Shown here piece by piece: positions 38,830-64,000 of a DNA stretch of 64,000 bases. Within the stretch, counting starts at the first letter, position 1; every line of letters begins with the position of its first letter. The translations under genes and the position numbers were made by a program. The DNA is from Candidatus Phycosocius spiralis (GTDB lineage: Bacteria; Pseudomonadota; Alphaproteobacteria; Caulobacterales; Aquidulcibacteraceae): NCBI RefSeq assembly GCF_030158815.1, contig NZ_BPFZ01000006.1, forward strand, positions 1 through 64,000. The letters are read 5' to 3'. The notes beneath the pieces are model-generated. The model worked only from the letters and a program-made list of their open reading frames with translations. It searched no databases and had not been told where the DNA came from.

Positions 38830-39175
38830 GGATTTGGGCTATTCTCCTTAGGTCCATGATCACTTTGCGATTTCATAGGAGCAGTGGCCCGACACCGCCC
38901 ATCAGCTACCCCCAAAAGCCCCATATGGCCGATCAGCATGACAAGATGATTGATGGGTAAAAATTTTAAAGCAAACAATTGAGGGCTTTGGTGCGATGGG
39001 GCCTGCTCACCAAGATTTTAGGATCGATTGAAGCTTTGGGATGGCAAATGGTGTGATGAAGGACAAAGCGCCTCAACGACCCCGCACTGGAAAGGTTTCT
39101 CTGAAAAATCGCGCAGAAAATTTCTCTTTGGGAAATGGGTTTCCCTCATCGGCGTGTCAGTCTAAGTTTCTTCGG
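38830..39175. other. Gap between prfA and the HtrA gene
   Basis: About 346 bp. An in-frame ATG at 39041 would give the protease 45 extra residues without a signal sequence, so I treat 38830-39175 as leader and promoter DNA. No clear terminator for prfA or promoter was found. Confidence 0.4.
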
Positions 39176-40546
39176 ATGAAACCAATATCTCCAAGCATTG
39201 TCGTAGCCTTTGTGGGCCTATTGTGTGCGGTATCAGTGCCAGTCGTAGCGCAACCACGACAAAACACTTCTTTAGTTAATGCGCCATTTGGAAACGATCG
39301 AGGATTCGCGGAAATCTCGGCGCGATTGTTACCCGCAGTGGTCGGGATTAAGGCAACCCGTGCATTGTCTGGGGCTCCTCGTGATGATGTACATGCCGGT
39401 GCCGGTGGTAGCACAACTGGATCGGGTTTTGTGGTAGATTCCCGTGGGGTGGTCGTGACTAATAATCATGTGATTGAAGGCAATGATGAGTTTGAAGTGG
39501 TTTTGGGTGACGGTACCAGTTTAAAAGCCACATTGATTGGACGAGACAGCGAAACAGATCTTGCTGTGCTGCGTGTGCTTGGGGCCAAGAATTTGGCGAC
39601 CGTAGCTTGGGGAAATAGCGATCAGGTCCAAGTGGGGGAATGGGCCATTGCGATTGGTAGCCCATTTGGCCTTGGAAATTCAGTTTCTGTGGGGGTGATT
39701 TCGGCGCGCAATCGCGATGTGCAAGCCGGCCTTTATGATGATTTTCTCCAAACCGATGCCGCCATTAATCGGGGCAATTCTGGTGGGCCATTGTTCAATG
39801 CACGTGGCCAAGTCGTTGGCGTCAATACGGCCATTGTATCGCCAAATGGGACCCAAGGTGGATCTGTTGGGGTTGGCTTTGCTGTTCCTGCCAATCTCGC
39901 GCGCTCGATCGTTGCTGATATCGTGCGCACAGGCGCGGTCCAGCGTGGTTGGATTGGTGCGCGGGTGCGTCTTTTGTCTCTTGAAGAGCGTGGAGTAGGA
40001 CCTAAAGGGGTGTTGATTAGTGATATTGCCCGTAATTCTCCAGCTGCGTTGGCAGGGCTGAGGGTTGGTGATCGATTGTTGAGTTGGGCTGGGCAAGAAG
40101 TAGTCGATCCGCGCACTTTGGCGCGTTTAGTCGCTTCTGCACGTCCTCAAAGCAGGGTTGCAGTAGAAGCGTTGCGTGGATCACAACCTATCAGGGTGCA
40201 AATGACGATAGCGCGCTTACCCGCTGAACTCAGCCCACCGAGAGGTCAAGCCATGCCTGTTGTCACAGTCTTGGGCATGGTTTTACGCATGGCCACACCA
40301 GCTGATCGACCCCGTTTACCCGCACAGGTTCGCGTGATTATCACAGCGCTTGATCCCTTTGGGCCGGGCAAAGATCAGGTCACAGTTGGCGATGGCTTAT
40401 TGGAAGTGCAGGGCAGGTCGGTTGCCAGCCCACAAGAAGCCCGCGCTGCGCTGTTGGAGGCGGCACGTCATCGTGATGGTGTCGTAATCCGCCTTTACCG
40501 TAATGGCCAATCAATCTATCGTGCGATACGGCCGAGCCGTCGATAG
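39176..40546 (+). CDS. Periplasmic HtrA/DegP-type serine protease with two PDZ-like domains
   Basis: A 456-residue protease for envelope protein quality control. The ATG at 39176 gives a clean signal peptide (MKPISPSIVVAFVGLLCAVS, cleavage near VVAQ). The catalytic triad is His in VTNNHVIEG (about residue 98), Asp in SETDLAV (about 127) and Ser in NRGNSGGPL (about 201). A PDZ domain follows (GVLISDIARNSPAALAGLRVGDRLL), and a second C-terminal PDZ-like segment (KDQVTVGDGLLEVQGRSVA) lacks the canonical binding loop. Length matches the DegQ/DegP class. Which paralogue it is cannot be decided here. Confidence 0.9.
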   Translation: MKPISPSIVVAFVGLLCAVSVPVVAQPRQNTSLVNAPFGNDRGFAEISARLLPAVVGIKATRALSGAPRDDVHAGAGGSTTGSGFVVDSRGVVVTNNHVIEGNDEFEVVLGDGTSLKATLIGRDSETDLAVLRVLGAKNLATVAWGNSDQVQVGEWAIAIGSPFGLGNSVSVGVISARNRDVQAGLYDDFLQTDAAINRGNSGGPLFNARGQVVGVNTAIVSPNGTQGGSVGVGFAVPANLARSIVADIVRTGAVQRGWIGARVRLLSLEERGVGPKGVLISDIARNSPAALAGLRVGDRLLSWAGQEVVDPRTLARLVASARPQSRVAVEALRGSQPIRVQMTIARLPAELSPPRGQAMPVVTVLGMVLRMATPADRPRLPAQVRVIITALDPFGPGKDQVTVGDGLLEVQGRSVASPQEARAALLEAARHRDGVVIRLYRNGQSIYRAIRPSRR

Positions 40547-56639: not shown

Positions 56640-58484
56640 ATGTCTGACTTTTTTGATGACGACAATGCCTCAACGCGTCAGCAAAAGGCCCATATCGGCC
56701 AAATGATGCTTTATCTATGGCGGCATTGGATCAGTCAACCCGGCAAATGTCTTACCATATTCGCGCTGATGATTCTCGCCACGGCGTGCGAACTTGCGCT
56801 TCCTGTGATTTCAGGCCGCATTGTCGAGATCTTGACGGAAGGCCCCAAAGCAGCACCCATCGCATTTGAATTCTTTGGTTTGTTTGCGGTGCTCGCTGCG
56901 GGCATCTTCATTCTGCGCAACATTTTGGTGCGGGTTTGGACTCTGTTTGCCGCACGCAATATGGCCAATATCACGCAGGCCAGCTTTAAGGATGTGCAGC
57001 GCTTTTCGAGCCAATGGCACAGTGACAATTTTGCTGGGGCGACCGTACGACGCGTCAGCCGAGCCATGTGGGCTTATGACACTTTGTCCGACAATTTTCT
57101 ATGGTACATTCTCCCGGCCACCATTGTTCTGATAGGTTTGACAGGGATCATGCTGACGCATTGGCCCGTGGTAGGCCTCTATGTAGGGGCAACCATCCTT
57201 TTCTATATCGTCGCTAGCATTTTGATGGCGCACTTTTACATTCAAGCCGCCAATGAAAAGTCGAATTCAGCCGATACCGCTATTGGTGCTTCTTTAGCCG
57301 ATGCCGTGTCAGCCAATGCGACCGTTAAAGCCTTTGGTGCGGAGGTTCGCGAGGAGGCGCGCTTTAGAGAAGTTGTTGAAACATGGCGCAAACTCGTCAC
57401 CATCACCTGGTTGCGTTATGTTGACGGCTGGGCATTATCCAATGCAATCTTATGGGCTTTGCAAGTTGGTCTATTAGGTTTGGTTTTGATGGAATGGCAC
57501 GATGGCCGGGCCAGTGCAGGTGATGCCACCTTTGCATTGACAAGTTATTTTTTGATCGCAAGCTATCTTCGCGATTTGGGCGAAACCGTTCAGCAAATAC
57601 AACGCGGCTTTGCCGACATAGAAGATGCAGTGGCCTATAGTCTAGAAGTCGAAGATGTTGCCGATGCACCCGATGCTACCCGTTTCGTAAAAGGTCCTGG
57701 AGAGATCGTGTTTGACAAGGTTACATTTGCCTATCGTGGGCAGAGTACGCCGCTTTATGAAGATTTCACTTTAACCATCAAACCGGGTGAAACCGTGGCC
57801 TTGGTTGGTCAAACAGGGTCGGGCAAATCCACATTCGTCAAGCTCTTGCAACGACTTTATGATGTGCAATCTGGCGCTATTCGTATTGATGGGCAGGACG
57901 TCCGATCTGTGCGCCAAGACTGTTTGCGCCGTGCAATCGCTTTGGTGCCACAGGACCCTGCCTTATTCCACCGAAGTCTGCACGAGAACATCACCTATGC
58001 CCGTCCAGATGCGGGTGTGGCAGAGGTCGAAGCGGCGATCCGTGATGCACGCGCACTAGACTTTATCGCCCGCCTGCCAAAGGGCATAGAAACTCTTGTC
58101 GGGGAACGGGGTATCAAGTTGTCGGGTGGTGAACGCCAACGCGTTGCACTTGCGCGTGCCTTTCTCGCTGATGCCCATATTTTGATCCTAGATGAAGCCA
58201 CATCATCGCTCGACACACAAACTGAGCGAGATGTGCAGGATGCTATGAAGGCCCTCACAAAGGGCAAGACTACGATTCTGATCGCACACCGTTTATCGAC
58301 TGTGCGGGGGGCGGATAGGATTTTGGTGTTTGAGGCCGGACGCATTGTTGAACAAGGAACCCATATGTCTCTTGTCACTAAAGGCGGCGTCTACGCCCGC
58401 TTACATGACCTCTCTGTGGGTGACAAACTGGGTGGAGACTTGGATTTGCATGCCCATCTCATGATCCAGAATGAAGCCAGTTAA
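56640..58484 (+). CDS. ABC transporter, fused permease and ATP-binding half-transporter
   Basis: A 614-residue exporter-type half-transporter. The first 340 residues hold six membrane helices. The nucleotide-binding domain has Walker A GQTGSGKST (near 393), signature LSGGERQRVAL (near 495), Walker B ILILDEATSSLD (near 515) and a switch His in LIAHRLSTV. It would act as a homodimer. The closest general match is the MsbA/multidrug or lipid exporter group; the substrate is unknown. It appears monocistronic. Confidence 0.9.
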   Translation: MSDFFDDDNASTRQQKAHIGQMMLYLWRHWISQPGKCLTIFALMILATACELALPVISGRIVEILTEGPKAAPIAFEFFGLFAVLAAGIFILRNILVRVWTLFAARNMANITQASFKDVQRFSSQWHSDNFAGATVRRVSRAMWAYDTLSDNFLWYILPATIVLIGLTGIMLTHWPVVGLYVGATILFYIVASILMAHFYIQAANEKSNSADTAIGASLADAVSANATVKAFGAEVREEARFREVVETWRKLVTITWLRYVDGWALSNAILWALQVGLLGLVLMEWHDGRASAGDATFALTSYFLIASYLRDLGETVQQIQRGFADIEDAVAYSLEVEDVADAPDATRFVKGPGEIVFDKVTFAYRGQSTPLYEDFTLTIKPGETVALVGQTGSGKSTFVKLLQRLYDVQSGAIRIDGQDVRSVRQDCLRRAIALVPQDPALFHRSLHENITYARPDAGVAEVEAAIRDARALDFIARLPKGIETLVGERGIKLSGGERQRVALARAFLADAHILILDEATSSLDTQTERDVQDAMKALTKGKTTILIAHRLSTVRGADRILVFEAGRIVEQGTHMSLVTKGGVYARLHDLSVGDKLGGDLDLHAHLMIQNEAS

Positions 58485-58643: not shown

Positions 58644-60425
58644 ATGACTGATATTTGGGGTGTCATTTGGAACATTGTGTTTGCGGGCGGCCTATTGGTA
58701 ACCTTGGTCACGATTTACCCCGTCGCCAAGGAAATGCACCATCACCCCAAAGGTCTAAAGGTCTTATTTTTTGCCGAGATGTGGGAACGGTTTTCTTATT
58801 ACGGTATGCGCGGCTTGTTGACCGTTTATCTGGTGCAGCATTTTTTGTTTGATCAAGCTGACGCGCAAAAAACCTTTTCTTCTTATACCACCTTGGTCTA
58901 TCTGGCACCCTTGCTTGGCGGCGTCCTAGCTGATCGGTTTTTAGGCACACGTAAAGCCATTGCCTTTGGTGCCATTGCATTGGTTGCTGGGCATTTCGCT
59001 ATGGGATTGGAAGGAAAGCCTACCACCCAGACTTTGAGTTATCAGGGCGCAACTTACCAGTTTGTGGCAGAAGGGCGCAATGAGCTTTATGTAGCCAAGC
59101 TTAAAATTGGCGATGCCGCTTATGCCTATAGCGCTTCTGAAAAAGGGATTGAGATTAAAAATATTCCCGCCAATGCCCCTTTGCCTGCTTTTTTGCCGAA
59201 AGGCAGTTATAAGCTGGAGAAAGTCAAAGCTGAAGGCCCGTTCCAAGCGATTTTCTACGTCGCTTTATCCTTGATCATTTTAGGGGTTGGGTTTTTAAAG
59301 CCCAACATCTCCTCTATCGTCGGCCAATTATATCCTCAAGGCGATCCAAGGCGCGATCCTGGCTTTACCCTTTATTACTACGGCATCAATTTGGGTGCCT
59401 TTTGGGCAGCTATTTTATGTGGCGCATTGGGAACTGTTGTTGGCTGGTGGGCTGGTTTTGGGCTTGCTGGGGTTGGCATGTTGGTAGGCTATATCGCCTT
59501 TGTGCGCGGCAAAGACAGCTTAGAAGGCAAGGGTGAGCCCCCCAATCCCGAAGCCTTGAAGCAAAAAATTTTAGGACCGATCAATTTAGAAATGGCCATT
59601 TATGTTGCTGCCTTGATTTCGATCCCGCTGATCTGGGTCCTTGTGCAAAATAACGCCATGGTCGGCAAAATGTTGGCAATAGGATCGGTAGCTATATTAG
59701 TTTACATCATCTATCACATGGTCACACAATGCAGCAAAGAAGAAGCTGGCCGATTGGTATTGGCCTTGATCTTGATTTTAGCTTCAGTGGTGTTTTTCAC
59801 TCTTTTTGAGCAAGCTGGTTCATCCTTGGCCTTGTTCACTGCGGGTAATGTGGCTTTGCCTAATGCCGGCTTTGTGACCATCACAGCGCCGCAAACCCAA
59901 AGTTTTAATGCAGGCTTTATCTTGATCTTCGCTCCTGCATTTGCTTGGCTATGGGTTAAGTTGGGGCAACGCAATTTGGACCCATCTGCGCCAATGAAGT
60001 TTGCGTTAGCCTTGATGCAAGTGGGTTTAGGATTTTTGATTTTGGTGTGGGGCTCCCAATTTGCCAATGAACAAGCTCGGGTGCCCGTTATCTTTTTAGC
60101 TTTGGCTTATTTATTCCATACAACAGGGGAATTGTGCCTAAGCCCTGTTGGGTTGAGTTGGATGACGAAACTCTCTACACCCAAGCTCATCTCAACCTTG
60201 ATGGCGACTTGGTTTTTAGGCAGTTCTGGTGCACAATTCTTAGGCGGTATAATTGCCCAATATACAGCGACCGAAACGGTTGCTGGTCAAGTCACAGACC
60301 CAGCTAAAGCACTGATGACTGCAATTGATGTGTTTAGCACCATTGGCTGGTGGTCGATTGGTATAGGTGTGACCATGGCATTGGCTTCCCCCCTACTGAA
60401 GCGATTGGCATCGGGGATCAAATGA
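58644..60425 (+). CDS. POT-family proton-dependent oligopeptide transporter
   Basis: A 593-residue inner-membrane symporter for di- and tripeptides. The PTR2 signature FFAEMWERFSYYGMRGLLTV is near residues 42-61, including the ExxERFxYY proton-coupling motif. FLKPNISSIVGQLY and the terminal helix region with TGELCLSPVGLSWMTKL are also conserved. The 593 residues include an extra, mostly soluble insertion (about 130-195, KPTTQTLSYQGATYQF onward) before the fifth helix. AGGAGAGG supports the start. It may cooperate in peptide uptake with other systems, but nothing links it to the lipoprotein at 42 kb. Confidence 0.93.
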   Translation: MTDIWGVIWNIVFAGGLLVTLVTIYPVAKEMHHHPKGLKVLFFAEMWERFSYYGMRGLLTVYLVQHFLFDQADAQKTFSSYTTLVYLAPLLGGVLADRFLGTRKAIAFGAIALVAGHFAMGLEGKPTTQTLSYQGATYQFVAEGRNELYVAKLKIGDAAYAYSASEKGIEIKNIPANAPLPAFLPKGSYKLEKVKAEGPFQAIFYVALSLIILGVGFLKPNISSIVGQLYPQGDPRRDPGFTLYYYGINLGAFWAAILCGALGTVVGWWAGFGLAGVGMLVGYIAFVRGKDSLEGKGEPPNPEALKQKILGPINLEMAIYVAALISIPLIWVLVQNNAMVGKMLAIGSVAILVYIIYHMVTQCSKEEAGRLVLALILILASVVFFTLFEQAGSSLALFTAGNVALPNAGFVTITAPQTQSFNAGFILIFAPAFAWLWVKLGQRNLDPSAPMKFALALMQVGLGFLILVWGSQFANEQARVPVIFLALAYLFHTTGELCLSPVGLSWMTKLSTPKLISTLMATWFLGSSGAQFLGGIIAQYTATETVAGQVTDPAKALMTAIDVFSTIGWWSIGIGVTMALASPLLKRLASGIK

Positions 60426-60432
60426 GGGTGGT

Positions 60433-61678
60433 CTAGAGGCTGCCCTTGAGCGTTAGGTACCAAACCCCATCCTTTGATCGTTCGCGATACTGGATTTGGC
60501 TGATATTGCCTGAACGACGATCGGGACTAAAATCGGTGCGGGTGCGGTTGAAGGTCATTCCATTGGGATCTTCGACTCCAAACTCCAAAATCAGGCCGTT
60601 AAAGGCTCTGGCTCAACCCATACGCCCCAGCTTTCAATCGTATCCCAATGCAATATCTGGTTGGGGCGAAAGTCGCTATTATTATTGCCGCGCCAAAACC
60701 ATGCTCCAGCCCGCAGTTTCTTTTTGGGTAATTCATAGACGACATTGGTTTCAAAATTGCGGCCATTGCCCCCAGAAAGCGGGCGGACACCCCCGGTGAG
60801 TGGGTCGGTGAGTTCACTGTCGCGCCAACGATAACTCGATTCAATCTCAAGACCTTCCAACAGCATTGGCAAAGGCAAAGTCATGGAAATATTATATCCC
60901 CAGCGGCGCGCGCGCGGGATATTTCCCAAAGCAACACTTCCCGATGGTGTGGAACCAAACTAAGTTGATCCTCTATCTCTTCTTGCACCCAAGAAGCATT
61001 CAAAACGCCGCGCTTATCCCAACGCCGCTCAACACCCAATAAGACGGACCAAGTCTGCTCAGGCCTTAACTCGGGATTGCCGCTGTTTTGGTTTCCATCC
61101 CCTACAGAAGCCGAATCAGCAAAGGCACCAAAGTCCAATTGTCCAACTGCCCTTTCTATGTCGATGCGATAGGTCCAATTGGGATCAGGCTTCCAAGCTG
61201 CCTTCATGCGGGGTTTGGGATAAAAGAAGGAGCGGGTTTTTCCTGCTTCACCGGTCTGTTTAATGCTTGACCACTCTCCAGTTAGAGTTGATTCCAAAGT
61301 AAGAGCATCGGTAAGCGTCCAAGAATCGCTGATAAAGGTTTCGGTGCGATTTTCAGCAACTTGGGTTTTGGAGATATCAGAAGGTTGGACTTTAAAGATT
61401 TGGCCGTCACCTTGTGAAAATTGCCCATCAAAATCAAGGCTATTAAAGGCAATTTCCCCTCCCGTTTCGAATTGATGCTTACCCATTTTGCGTTTGATGG
61501 TTACGCGTCCGACGCGTTCACCACTTTCTGATTGGGAGCGGAAACGGCCAAAACTAAGTGGTACGCCGATCAGATTAAATCCTGCTTGGTCTAAAGCCTC
61601 ATCTATTTTACCTTTAGCAAGCACAGCAAGTTTACCAGTCCAGCCATAGATCACCCGTTCAACATCCCCCCCTATCAA
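60433..61678 (-). pseudogene. TonB-dependent receptor remnant with two frameshifts and no N-terminus
   Basis: Three frames together read as the C-terminal beta-barrel of one receptor. Frame 1 (61678 down to about 60950) includes PELRPEQTWSVLLGVERRWD. Frame 2 (to 60604) includes ALGNIPRARRWGYNISM, ESSYRWRDSELTDP and ends EPEPL. Frame 3 runs FNGLILEFGVEDPNG to WYLTLKGSL and a stop at 60433. The first shift lies at about 60935-60960. The second fits loss of one T in a short T-run at 60601-60603. The plug domain and half the barrel are missing; the 5' end lies in a 50-bp inverted repeat. Sequencing error could explain the shifts but not the truncation. Confidence 0.85.
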
Positions 61679-61899
61679 CAGGTGCGTAATGATGTACTAT
61701 TTACAGCGGTAGTACCCGTGAAATGTTTGTCATGAAGTATTTGTAATCAGGGAAGTTGTTCTTGATAGCTTTCTTTCTTTCAGGATGATTTCACCCTGGT
61801 GCACATCGATCAAGGCCGTGAAGCTGGTCATACCAAGCGTTGGGAAGTTGGGGGGGATGTTGAACGGGTGATCTATGGCTGGACTGGTAAACTTGCTGT
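61623..61899. repeat. Perfect 50-bp inverted repeat flanking a 177-bp segment
   Basis: Bases 61623-61672 are the exact reverse complement of 61850-61899. Both arms encode the same receptor peptide, GGDVERVIYGWTGKLAV, in opposite directions and in the same codon phase. Outside the arms the sequences differ at once. The spacer is 61673-61849. This points to an inverted duplication within the broken receptor gene. Confidence 0.95.
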
Positions 61900-61901
61900 T
61901 G
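61772..61901 (+). pseudogene. Inverted fragment of the same TonB-dependent receptor
   Basis: A plus-strand reading frame gives QDDFTLVHIDQGREAG and then HTKRWEVGGDVERVIYGWTG before running into unrelated sequence. Its second half equals the first residues of the minus-strand pseudogene, so the fragment supplies the residues that should precede them. A stop lies just upstream, at 61766. It is non-functional and marks the rearrangement. Confidence 0.7.
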
Positions 61902-61971
61902 AGTTTACGAATAAACCCATAAGATCAGCGCACTTGGTGACGGTTTTGGCTCAAGATTGGAGCATAATGTG

Positions 61972-64000
61972 TCAAAACGGCTTGGTGATCCCAACTTGCA
62001 CCTGCCGGGGCGCACCGGGCAAGATACCCCGAGAGCGGTCGACAATCGTTCTGGCATCGGTGGCATTTTTGATCGCGATATAAGCACCAAAAGGCCAGTT
62101 TTGCGGATGCAGATTGAAGGTCATATTCCAATTGTCCGCCGCTTTGATTAAGCCGCGCTGTCCATCGGCACTTGGTGCCACTGAATTGAGATCATCTGTG
62201 AACATTTCCCCTGTACGCACATATTCCACCTGCATGTCCCCCGCCGTGCCAAAGACATAGCCCACCGCCAGATTGATCAGCCAGCGTGGGGCATAGGGCA
62301 GGCGATTGCCAGTCACCGGACGGCTGCCAAAGCCCGCGACGTTGGAAAAACGTGTTCCCTGAAAGCGGGCTTCATCCACCAAAGTCACCGCCGAACGCAC
62401 ATAAAGATCGCGCCCGCCTTCCATCAGACCCATATCGGCAAAAGAACCGCGTAGGGAGGCTTCAATCCCTTGGTGCAACGTCGCGCCTGCGCTGGTCAAA
62501 GTGGCCCCAACGCCGCCGGCAACGGAAGTTGGAATGATCTGATTTTCAAAATCCATCGAGAACCACGTGATATCCATTGAGACGCCCGGTCGAACATCGC
62601 CGCGCAATCCAACTTCCCAATTGGTGCTGGTTTCAGCATCCAGATTGATGGAGGCACCGGTCGTGTTATTGATCGTATCTTCAACCCGTGGAGGTGAGAA
62701 CCCTTTATGCCCGCCCGCATAAGCGATGAATTTTGGACCCAAACGATAGGTGATGCCAATGCCGGGGATCACTTCTTCGACTGTGTCTTTACCTTGAACA
62801 GGCGCCAATGGATTGAGGCGATTAACCCGTCGAAGGTCAATATGTTCAAGGCGTACCCCTGGGGAAATGGCGAGCGGCCCTAAGCTTGCTTTGGTGGTCA
62901 AAAAACCAGACCAAGCCTGCACATAGCGCAAATTGTTTTCACGGACCCCAGCGTTTAGGCTGGTTCCAGGTGTTCGCCCCGTGGGCGTATCTGAGTTAAC
63001 TTGTAGGCGATTTTGCCGCTCATCACTGTAGCGTAGGCCCATTTCGCTTTCCAATTGGACTGCGCCCAGCGCCGCCTTATGGCTTAATCGGGTTTCAAGC
63101 CCATAGGTGTGATACTCACGCAGCCGCCCTTCATTGCCGCACGTCGTCAACAGGTTGGCCATGCCCAAGCATATGGGATCAGAAGCATCATTGGGGCGTT
63201 GGCCAGAATTGGAGGATTGACGCCACCAATCCCGGTCGAACCACGAAAAAGACCCTGAAGTCTTAAGGATTACATCTTGGCTGATAGTCCATGACCACAG
63301 TAATGAAGTGCCATAGCGGATGGCCTTAAAGCCGTCGTTGACAAAGGGGTTTTGTCGCGCATTGGCCAGATATTCAGCTGTCGTCAGGCCTGAATAGGTA
63401 ATCTGACTGTCTTCTTGATACCGACTTAGCCTAAAGGTCAAATCGTGCGTGGCACCCAAGGAGCGTTCAATCTTGAGATAGAGGTCGTTGATCTTAAGCG
63501 CCTGATGATCGCGAACCCCATCCGATTGTGTCGCATTGGCATGAAACAGCGCCCGCATCTCCCCAATGGGCCCACCCAAATTTAGGTCAGTTTCCTTATA
63601 GCCATCACTGCCAAACGCGAAGCCGACTTGGCCTTGAAAGGTCTCAGGGGCAGGCGGGGTTACATAATTGATGACGCCGCCGACCGTATTGGGACCAAAA
63701 CGGATTTGGCTGGCACCTTTGAGCACTTCAATGCGTGCAAAGCGGCGGATGGGTGGGTGGTAATAGGTCGCATTATCGCCATAGGGCGCAAAGCTTAGCG
63801 GCAGGCCATCTTCGAGAAGAAGTATTTTGGTTGAGCGGGTCGGGGAGAGGCCGCGCATACCGATATTGGGGCGCAGACCTAAGCCTTCCTCATCGCGGGC
63901 ATAAATGCCAGGAACTTGGCGCAAAGCCTCATTCACCGATACGACCCGTGCACGCAGTAAATCTTGTTGCTCAACAGTCGAGCCAGAGCCCGCAATTGTG
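61972..64000 (-). CDS. TonB-dependent receptor, FecA-like (runs off the window)
   Basis: An outer-membrane receptor for a ferric siderophore or similar ligand; about 675 residues are visible and the N-terminus lies beyond base 64000. The plug domain shows VNEALRQVPGIYARDEEG, RPNIGMRGLSPTRSTKILLL, IEVLKGASQIRFGPNTVGGV and INYVTPP, as in FecA. The barrel ends VGITKPF with the expected terminal Phe. The reading frame stays open past the internal GTG at 63936, so that is not the start. The gene is intact over what is visible and adjoins a broken receptor of another subfamily. Signal peptide and TonB box cannot be seen. Confidence 0.93.
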   Translation of the reverse strand, partial: TIAGSGSTVEQQDLLRARVVSVNEALRQVPGIYARDEEGLGLRPNIGMRGLSPTRSTKILLLEDGLPLSFAPYGDNATYYHPPIRRFARIEVLKGASQIRFGPNTVGGVINYVTPPAPETFQGQVGFAFGSDGYKETDLNLGGPIGEMRALFHANATQSDGVRDHQALKINDLYLKIERSLGATHDLTFRLSRYQEDSQITYSGLTTAEYLANARQNPFVNDGFKAIRYGTSLLWSWTISQDVILKTSGSFSWFDRDWWRQSSNSGQRPNDASDPICLGMANLLTTCGNEGRLREYHTYGLETRLSHKAALGAVQLESEMGLRYSDERQNRLQVNSDTPTGRTPGTSLNAGVRENNLRYVQAWSGFLTTKASLGPLAISPGVRLEHIDLRRVNRLNPLAPVQGKDTVEEVIPGIGITYRLGPKFIAYAGGHKGFSPPRVEDTINNTTGASINLDAETSTNWEVGLRGDVRPGVSMDITWFSMDFENQIIPTSVAGGVGATLTSAGATLHQGIEASLRGSFADMGLMEGGRDLYVRSAVTLVDEARFQGTRFSNVAGFGSRPVTGNRLPYAPRWLINLAVGYVFGTAGDMQVEYVRTGEMFTDDLNSVAPSADGQRGLIKAADNWNMTFNLHPQNWPFGAYIAIKNATDARTIVDRSRGILPGAPRQVQVGITKPF

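Follow-up and report, generated by a model that had tools for sequence, protein, structure and literature searches.

A perfect 50-bp inverted repeat at a broken TonB-dependent receptor gene of 'Candidatus Phycosocius spiralis' is probably a mutational scar

Introduction

In bacteria, tandem inversion duplications and fold-back junctions carry inverted copies at the junction, and these are later trimmed by deletions. Inversions with staggered breaks are modeled to leave inverted duplications at their ends. Both the inverted duplications and the staggered breaks have been discussed for inversions of Drosophila. Published short-range template switches span tens to hundreds of bases, and the four-point template-switch model, as outlined in the same source, yields perfect inverted repeats that are near each other (PMC7954356). 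Invertons are described as having arms of 10-40 nt (PMC11892184). Few papers that bear directly on bacterial inverted duplication by template switching were found, and it is not claimed that such cases are absent from print.

'Candidatus Phycosocius spiralis' is an alga-associated bacterium with a small genome. The genome of BOTRYCO-1 was reported as 46 contigs with an N50 of 149,808 bp, a longest contig of 351,315 bp, and a total of 2.5 Mb (PMC10008586). It is given as the smallest genome of its clade (range 2.5-3.7 Mb), and independent reductions have been suggested by the authors (PMC10008586). The data were obtained with MiSeq, SPAdes, and Pilon "as previously described" (PMC10008586). The earlier protocol that is cited used 550-bp fragments and a 600-cycle MiSeq kit (PMC5946039). 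Such a kit and such fragments would give reads of up to approximately 300 bases and pairs approximately 550 apart, which are able to span a structure of 277 bp.

The window analyzed here covers the first 64,000 nt of a contig of 149,808 bp from 'Ca. Phycosocius spiralis'. The genome used consists of 48 contigs and 2,502,038 bp, and its longest contig, C1, is 351,315 bp. The genus relatives that were compared include Ca. P. bacilliformis BOTRYCO-2 (G003), UKL13-1 (G004), and Aquidulcibacter paucihalophilus TH1-2. A perfect inverted repeat is present at the broken end of a TonB-dependent receptor gene, and it partly resembles the systems above. It shares with tandem inversion duplications the inverted copies at a junction, trimmed by deletion. 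However, no flanking duplication is seen here and the arms are only 50 bp. As in short-range template-switch mutations (PMC7954356), a reverse-complement copy is found near its source and a perfect inverted repeat is left. Unlike the mutations outlined there, the source and the target are approximately 1 kb apart here and a deletion of approximately 0.9 kb is superposed. As in the invertons, including intragenic ones, presented in PMC11892184, inverted repeats surround a short, invertible-looking spacer by a surface-protein gene. In contrast to the invertons of that account, the repeat is absent from eight genus relatives, its arms are longer than 10-40 nt, no recombinase match is found on the contig, and the gene is broken in either orientation.

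The inverted repeat

The two arms are located at 61623-61672 (arm 1, minus strand) and 61850-61899 (arm 2, plus strand). They are complementary at 50 of 50 nt (100%), with a spacer of 177 nt and a total structure of 277 bp. Arm 1 is a mid-gene segment of the receptor and is joined directly to the barrel remnant. Arm 2 repeats these 50 bp in inverted orientation. On its own strand and in the receptor phase, each arm covers 16 complete codons, GGDVERVIYGWTGKLA, and two bases of the codon that follows. The original prediction of a perfect 50-bp repeat, with arms that encode one receptor segment twice in the same codon phase, is thus borne out by the assembly. The equal phase is no separate evidence, because both arms copy one gene segment.

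This was the only inverted pair of at least 25 nt in the window (seed 16). When the surrounding 4.5 kb was shuffled 200 times (first-order Markov), the longest perfect arm was 17 nt and the median was 11, so arms of 50 nt are far beyond chance. It was also the only perfect inverted repeat of at least 20 nt within 3 kb in the 1,336,808 of 2,502,038 genome bases that were examined; four others of 18-19 nt were found in the same bases. A search of the whole genome with 61500-62000 matched each arm at the two arm sites only. The distant DNA search of the plasmid collection with the same segment gave 0 matches.

Imperfect fold-backs were also explored. Six inverted pairs of at least 28 nt were found in 1.337 Mb, searched in 10-kb pieces, and only the 50-bp pair was perfect. 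The same search found one pair in 239 kb of two relatives. Among the other five pairs, two mark the ends of a transposase-like element present in two copies, one is on a REP/Y1-transposase-like element (both elements named by eye), and two are without evident cause. The two copies of the first element, C6:148285-149552 and C7:48577-49831, are 99% identical over 1.26 kb, and the C6 copy is near the end of its contig. The REP-associated (Y1) transposase-like frame, C2:97877-98545, is bounded by 47-nt imperfect inverted repeats, and more pieces of this element are found on C1, C3, and C17. The pairs without evident cause are at C2:123695-124187 and C1:108367-111405 (81% over 43 nt; 88% over 40 nt).

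The receptor remnant

The barrel remnant of the TonB-dependent receptor occupies 60436-61675 on the minus strand, in three successive frames that change near 60950 and near 60610. The PF00593 barrel domain was identified in the minus-strand frame 60881-61678 with 51.5 bits (curated cut-off 27). The plug domain, PF07715, was not found in the remnant. In both orthologues that were scanned it is present at residues 96-164 and 78-145, within the part that the genome of 'Ca. Phycosocius spiralis' lacks.

Matches to the receptor at E <=0.001 were found in 108 of the 120 genomes searched, its own included. In contig scans, the remnant protein alone gave 64 pattern matches with 0 confirmed, and an alignment of eight relatives gave 103 with eight named loci. 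An intact orthologue, 68-71% identical and with an uninterrupted frame of 713-732 residues, is present in all eight other genus genomes that were searched. To look for the N-terminal part in the genome of 'Ca. Phycosocius spiralis', 327 aa from a relative were used as the query with E up to 1, and only the arm-containing places, 61799-61900 (+) and 61568-61675 (-), were returned. It appears that roughly the first 270 residues of the receptor are gone from this genome. The site is the broken 5' end of a receptor gene, which supports the original prediction on this point.

Over a stretch of 242 aligned residues without a frame change, the identity of the remnant to G004 and G003 is 70-72%, compared with 83% between these two relatives. 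The second, intact-looking receptor nearby is 73-76% identical to the same two relatives versus 79% between them, and two neighboring transporters are 80-85% identical to them versus 86-94% between them. This comparison fits a receptor that was recently broken, and it provides no date. The remnant retains an open frame of 265 aa. Given this and the 70-72% identity, some residual selection on the frame may be possible.

Spacer and junctions

Arm 2 and its N-terminal neighbor together form an inverted receptor fragment, 61769-61901 (+). It has a protein match in each of the eight intact orthologues (E 2.5e-8 to 4.5e-10). In four of them the match covers 61799-61900, with 62-68% identity over 34 aa, and in the other four it reaches 61778 or 61769, with 50-55% over 42-44 aa. 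The plus strand of 61799-61900 is thus mid-receptor sequence that runs opposite to the gene, a nearby reverse complement of the kind left by a template switch. This reversed mid-gene piece is 100-130 bp long and is upstream of the remnant. At the DNA level, 61769-61849 scored above the shuffle maximum in only two of the eight loci (25 to 24, 28 to 26). The assignment to the receptor is therefore based on the protein comparison.

The spacer also contains a conserved upstream element of the receptor gene, located at 61713-61759 on the minus strand, with the core TTCATGACANNNNTTTCACGGG at 61715-61736. It is in its native (sense) orientation relative to the remnant and is 83-89% identical over 30-47 nt to the start region of the eight intact genes. 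With one mismatch allowed, the core pattern was found as a single copy at the start of the receptor in nine of nine genus genomes, this one included, in every case without a mismatch, and a reversed control pattern was found in none of the nine. The sequence around the element diverges among these genomes. The TTCATGACANNNNTTTCACGGG element is probably a promoter or a regulator site. Reading its reverse strand as Pho-box-like would be only a guess.

In G003, the core (156709-156730) is 929 bp from the site equivalent to the arm, versus 42 bp here. It appears that approximately 0.9 kb, including the N-terminal coding part, was deleted between the upstream element and the middle of the gene. The segment from the element to the G-run, 61673-61712 (minus strand), is presumed to be the rest of the receptor leader and has no confident alignment. 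A run of seven G, 61666-61672 (minus strand), joins the leader to the mid-gene sequence. In the relatives, the presumed start codon is closely preceded by a G-rich stretch, and the mid-gene site has GGCGG-N-GA. A deletion guided by micro-homology is plausible here. The G-run junction, with its visible micro-homology candidate, is the only one of the three junctions that is open to judgement. A comparison with the intact gene of a relative had been proposed as a check of the original prediction, and it is this comparison that revealed the N-terminal loss, the apparent 0.9-kb deletion, and the reversed mid-gene piece.

On the other side, 72 bp (61900-61971) separate arm 2 from the stop codon of the neighboring receptor. 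They were found in no other place in the genome and have no convincing match in the relatives. Scores against the eight orthologous loci were 20-28, with shuffle maxima of 23-25 (20 shuffles each). Three loci exceeded their own shuffle maximum (L036, 28 to 24; L037, 26 to 23; L043, 26 to 24), at non-equivalent positions. The sequences that flank the second receptor on its 3' side gave 19 and 16 in two relatives.

Gene neighborhood

The gene order in the relatives is protease, upstream element, and intact receptor, and the protease side is gone here. The gene of this protease, which is trypsin-like and has PDZ domains (HtrA-type), is instead at 39041-40546 (+), approximately 21 kb away. The 3' side is conserved, with a POT-family transporter (PF00854) at 58644-60425 (+) and then an ABC transporter (PF00664 and PF00005) at 56640-58484 (+). 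A second TonB-dependent receptor gene (Plug and barrel) is at 61972-64000 on the minus strand, and its frame is open to 64194 in the contig. In UKL13-1 and BOTRYCO-2, the two receptors are separated by 55 and 64 kb, edge to edge; here the 3' end of the second is 72 bp beyond arm 2. Contigs C2, C3, and C7 carry three other flanks of these blocks.

The inverted repeat is located on a synteny breakpoint, at the junction of two blocks. Six block changes were counted in 120 kb of G004 among genes with a match, with about half of the genome of 'Ca. Phycosocius spiralis' in view. Because such junctions are frequent, the coincidence is modest evidence of a link and could be due to chance. Perfect inverted repeats of at least 14 nt within 3 kb were absent from seven of the eight orthologous loci, and the eighth has an unrelated 16-nt inverted pair at the 3' end of the gene.

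The 3' flank of the second receptor differs in three genomes (61900-61971 here, C7 ~225040 in G003, and C1 ~369680 in G004). This flank may be a recurrent junction site.

Discussion

The repeat is quite probably a non-functional mutational scar, formed by inverted copying and deletion in a decaying TonB-dependent receptor gene at a site of chromosome rearrangement. Read in the direction of the gene, the present order is the second receptor, 72 bp, the reversed mid-gene piece, the upstream element in its native direction, and the mid-gene and barrel sequence. Whichever way the spacer is oriented, the ancestral order does not result, so one inversion is insufficient. A deletion of approximately 0.9 kb and an inverted copying step would be needed at least, and this is the smallest account that we can give. 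A replication template switch or fold-back repair, perhaps at, or together with, the block rearrangement junction, would have put a reverse copy of the mid-gene sequence upstream of the element. The deletion would then have joined the leader to the mid-gene sequence at the G-run and left 50 bp in common with the reverse copy. Alternatively, the copying and the deletion may have been one complex event. The steps, their number, and their order are what we infer from pieces and orientations that are observed. On this proposal, the arms are 50 bp because the ends of the deletion and of the reverse copy happen to leave that length in common, and the young age of the event explains their identity.

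The original prediction offered template switching or inversion with duplication as the origin. The inverted, duplicated segment is what template switching would leave. A single inversion with duplication is not supported, since the element is native and the mid-gene piece is reversed. For an account by a single set of four switch points, the relatives offer DNA that is only about 68% identical, and an extra deletion is required.

Several other explanations were weighed. One replication-repair event could have joined the two blocks that are now adjacent and folded back in the same step, with arms at which general recombination may continue to invert the spacer at a low rate; as a whole, this seems rather improbable. 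If the 177-bp spacer had simply been inverted by way of staggered breaks, inverted duplications at both ends would be expected, and the arms do enclose a single spacer in agreement with that model. However, reversal turns the upstream element antisense beside the mid-gene sequence instead of restoring the ancestral order, and with approximately 0.9 kb still missing a second event is needed anyway, which makes this inversion unlikely. A chimeric join or an arbitrary spacer orientation could come from a draft short-read assembly, here of the MiSeq and SPAdes type indicated in PMC10008586, or from a library preparation that may include PCR. Such an artefact is very unlikely, since the structure is inside a 149,808-bp contig and could be spanned by the reads and pairs of the PMC5946039 protocol. 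Amplification chimeras would also be expected to recur, but no second repeat of this type was found in 1.337 Mb. Moreover, the upstream element inside the spacer belongs to the gene itself, and the gene carries independent breaks elsewhere.

The perfect inverted ends around a small spacer could suggest the terminal repeats of an insertion sequence or MITE. This is hardly credible for a sequence with no other copy in the genome, whose 177-bp spacer has no long frame and contains receptor sequence and the receptor's upstream element. Three of the five imperfect pairs found in 1.337 Mb are on transposase-like elements with their own coding frames, but the 50-bp pair has none. The perfect arms, the short spacer, and the position at the edge of a surface-receptor gene are also what would be seen in a phase-variable switch, an intragenic inverton in which recombination between the arms flips the spacer and alters the receptor frame. 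The original prediction that a flip would extend the frame by about 26 codons was close: on the plus strand, 27 codons (61769 to 61849) follow a TAG without interruption, and the first common start codon among them is at 61799. However, the gene stays broken in both orientations and the ancestral order is not regained. Functional switching of the gene by a spacer flip is not supported, given that the N-terminal part was not found in the genome and that two frame changes are downstream. In addition, the eight orthologous loci have no such repeat. Resolvase (PF00239) matches number 0 in this genome versus 10 of 14 control genomes, and the four Phage_integrase (PF00589) matches are all on other contigs (C2, C4, C9, and C17). 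A phase-variable switch is therefore extremely improbable. A homology of 50 bp could permit rare flips by general recombination, and these are possible without evident effect.

If one replication-repair event did join the blocks, then a fold-back junction would have driven rearrangement during the genome reduction of this lineage, and both spacer orientations may coexist in culture without effect. The probable scar has small wider importance, and it indicates that inverted repeats next to surface genes are not always switches. For 'Ca. Phycosocius spiralis', it would be a well-preserved case of gene loss in the small genome of an algal associate, where rearrangement, inverted copying, deletion, and frameshifts have come together at a single site.
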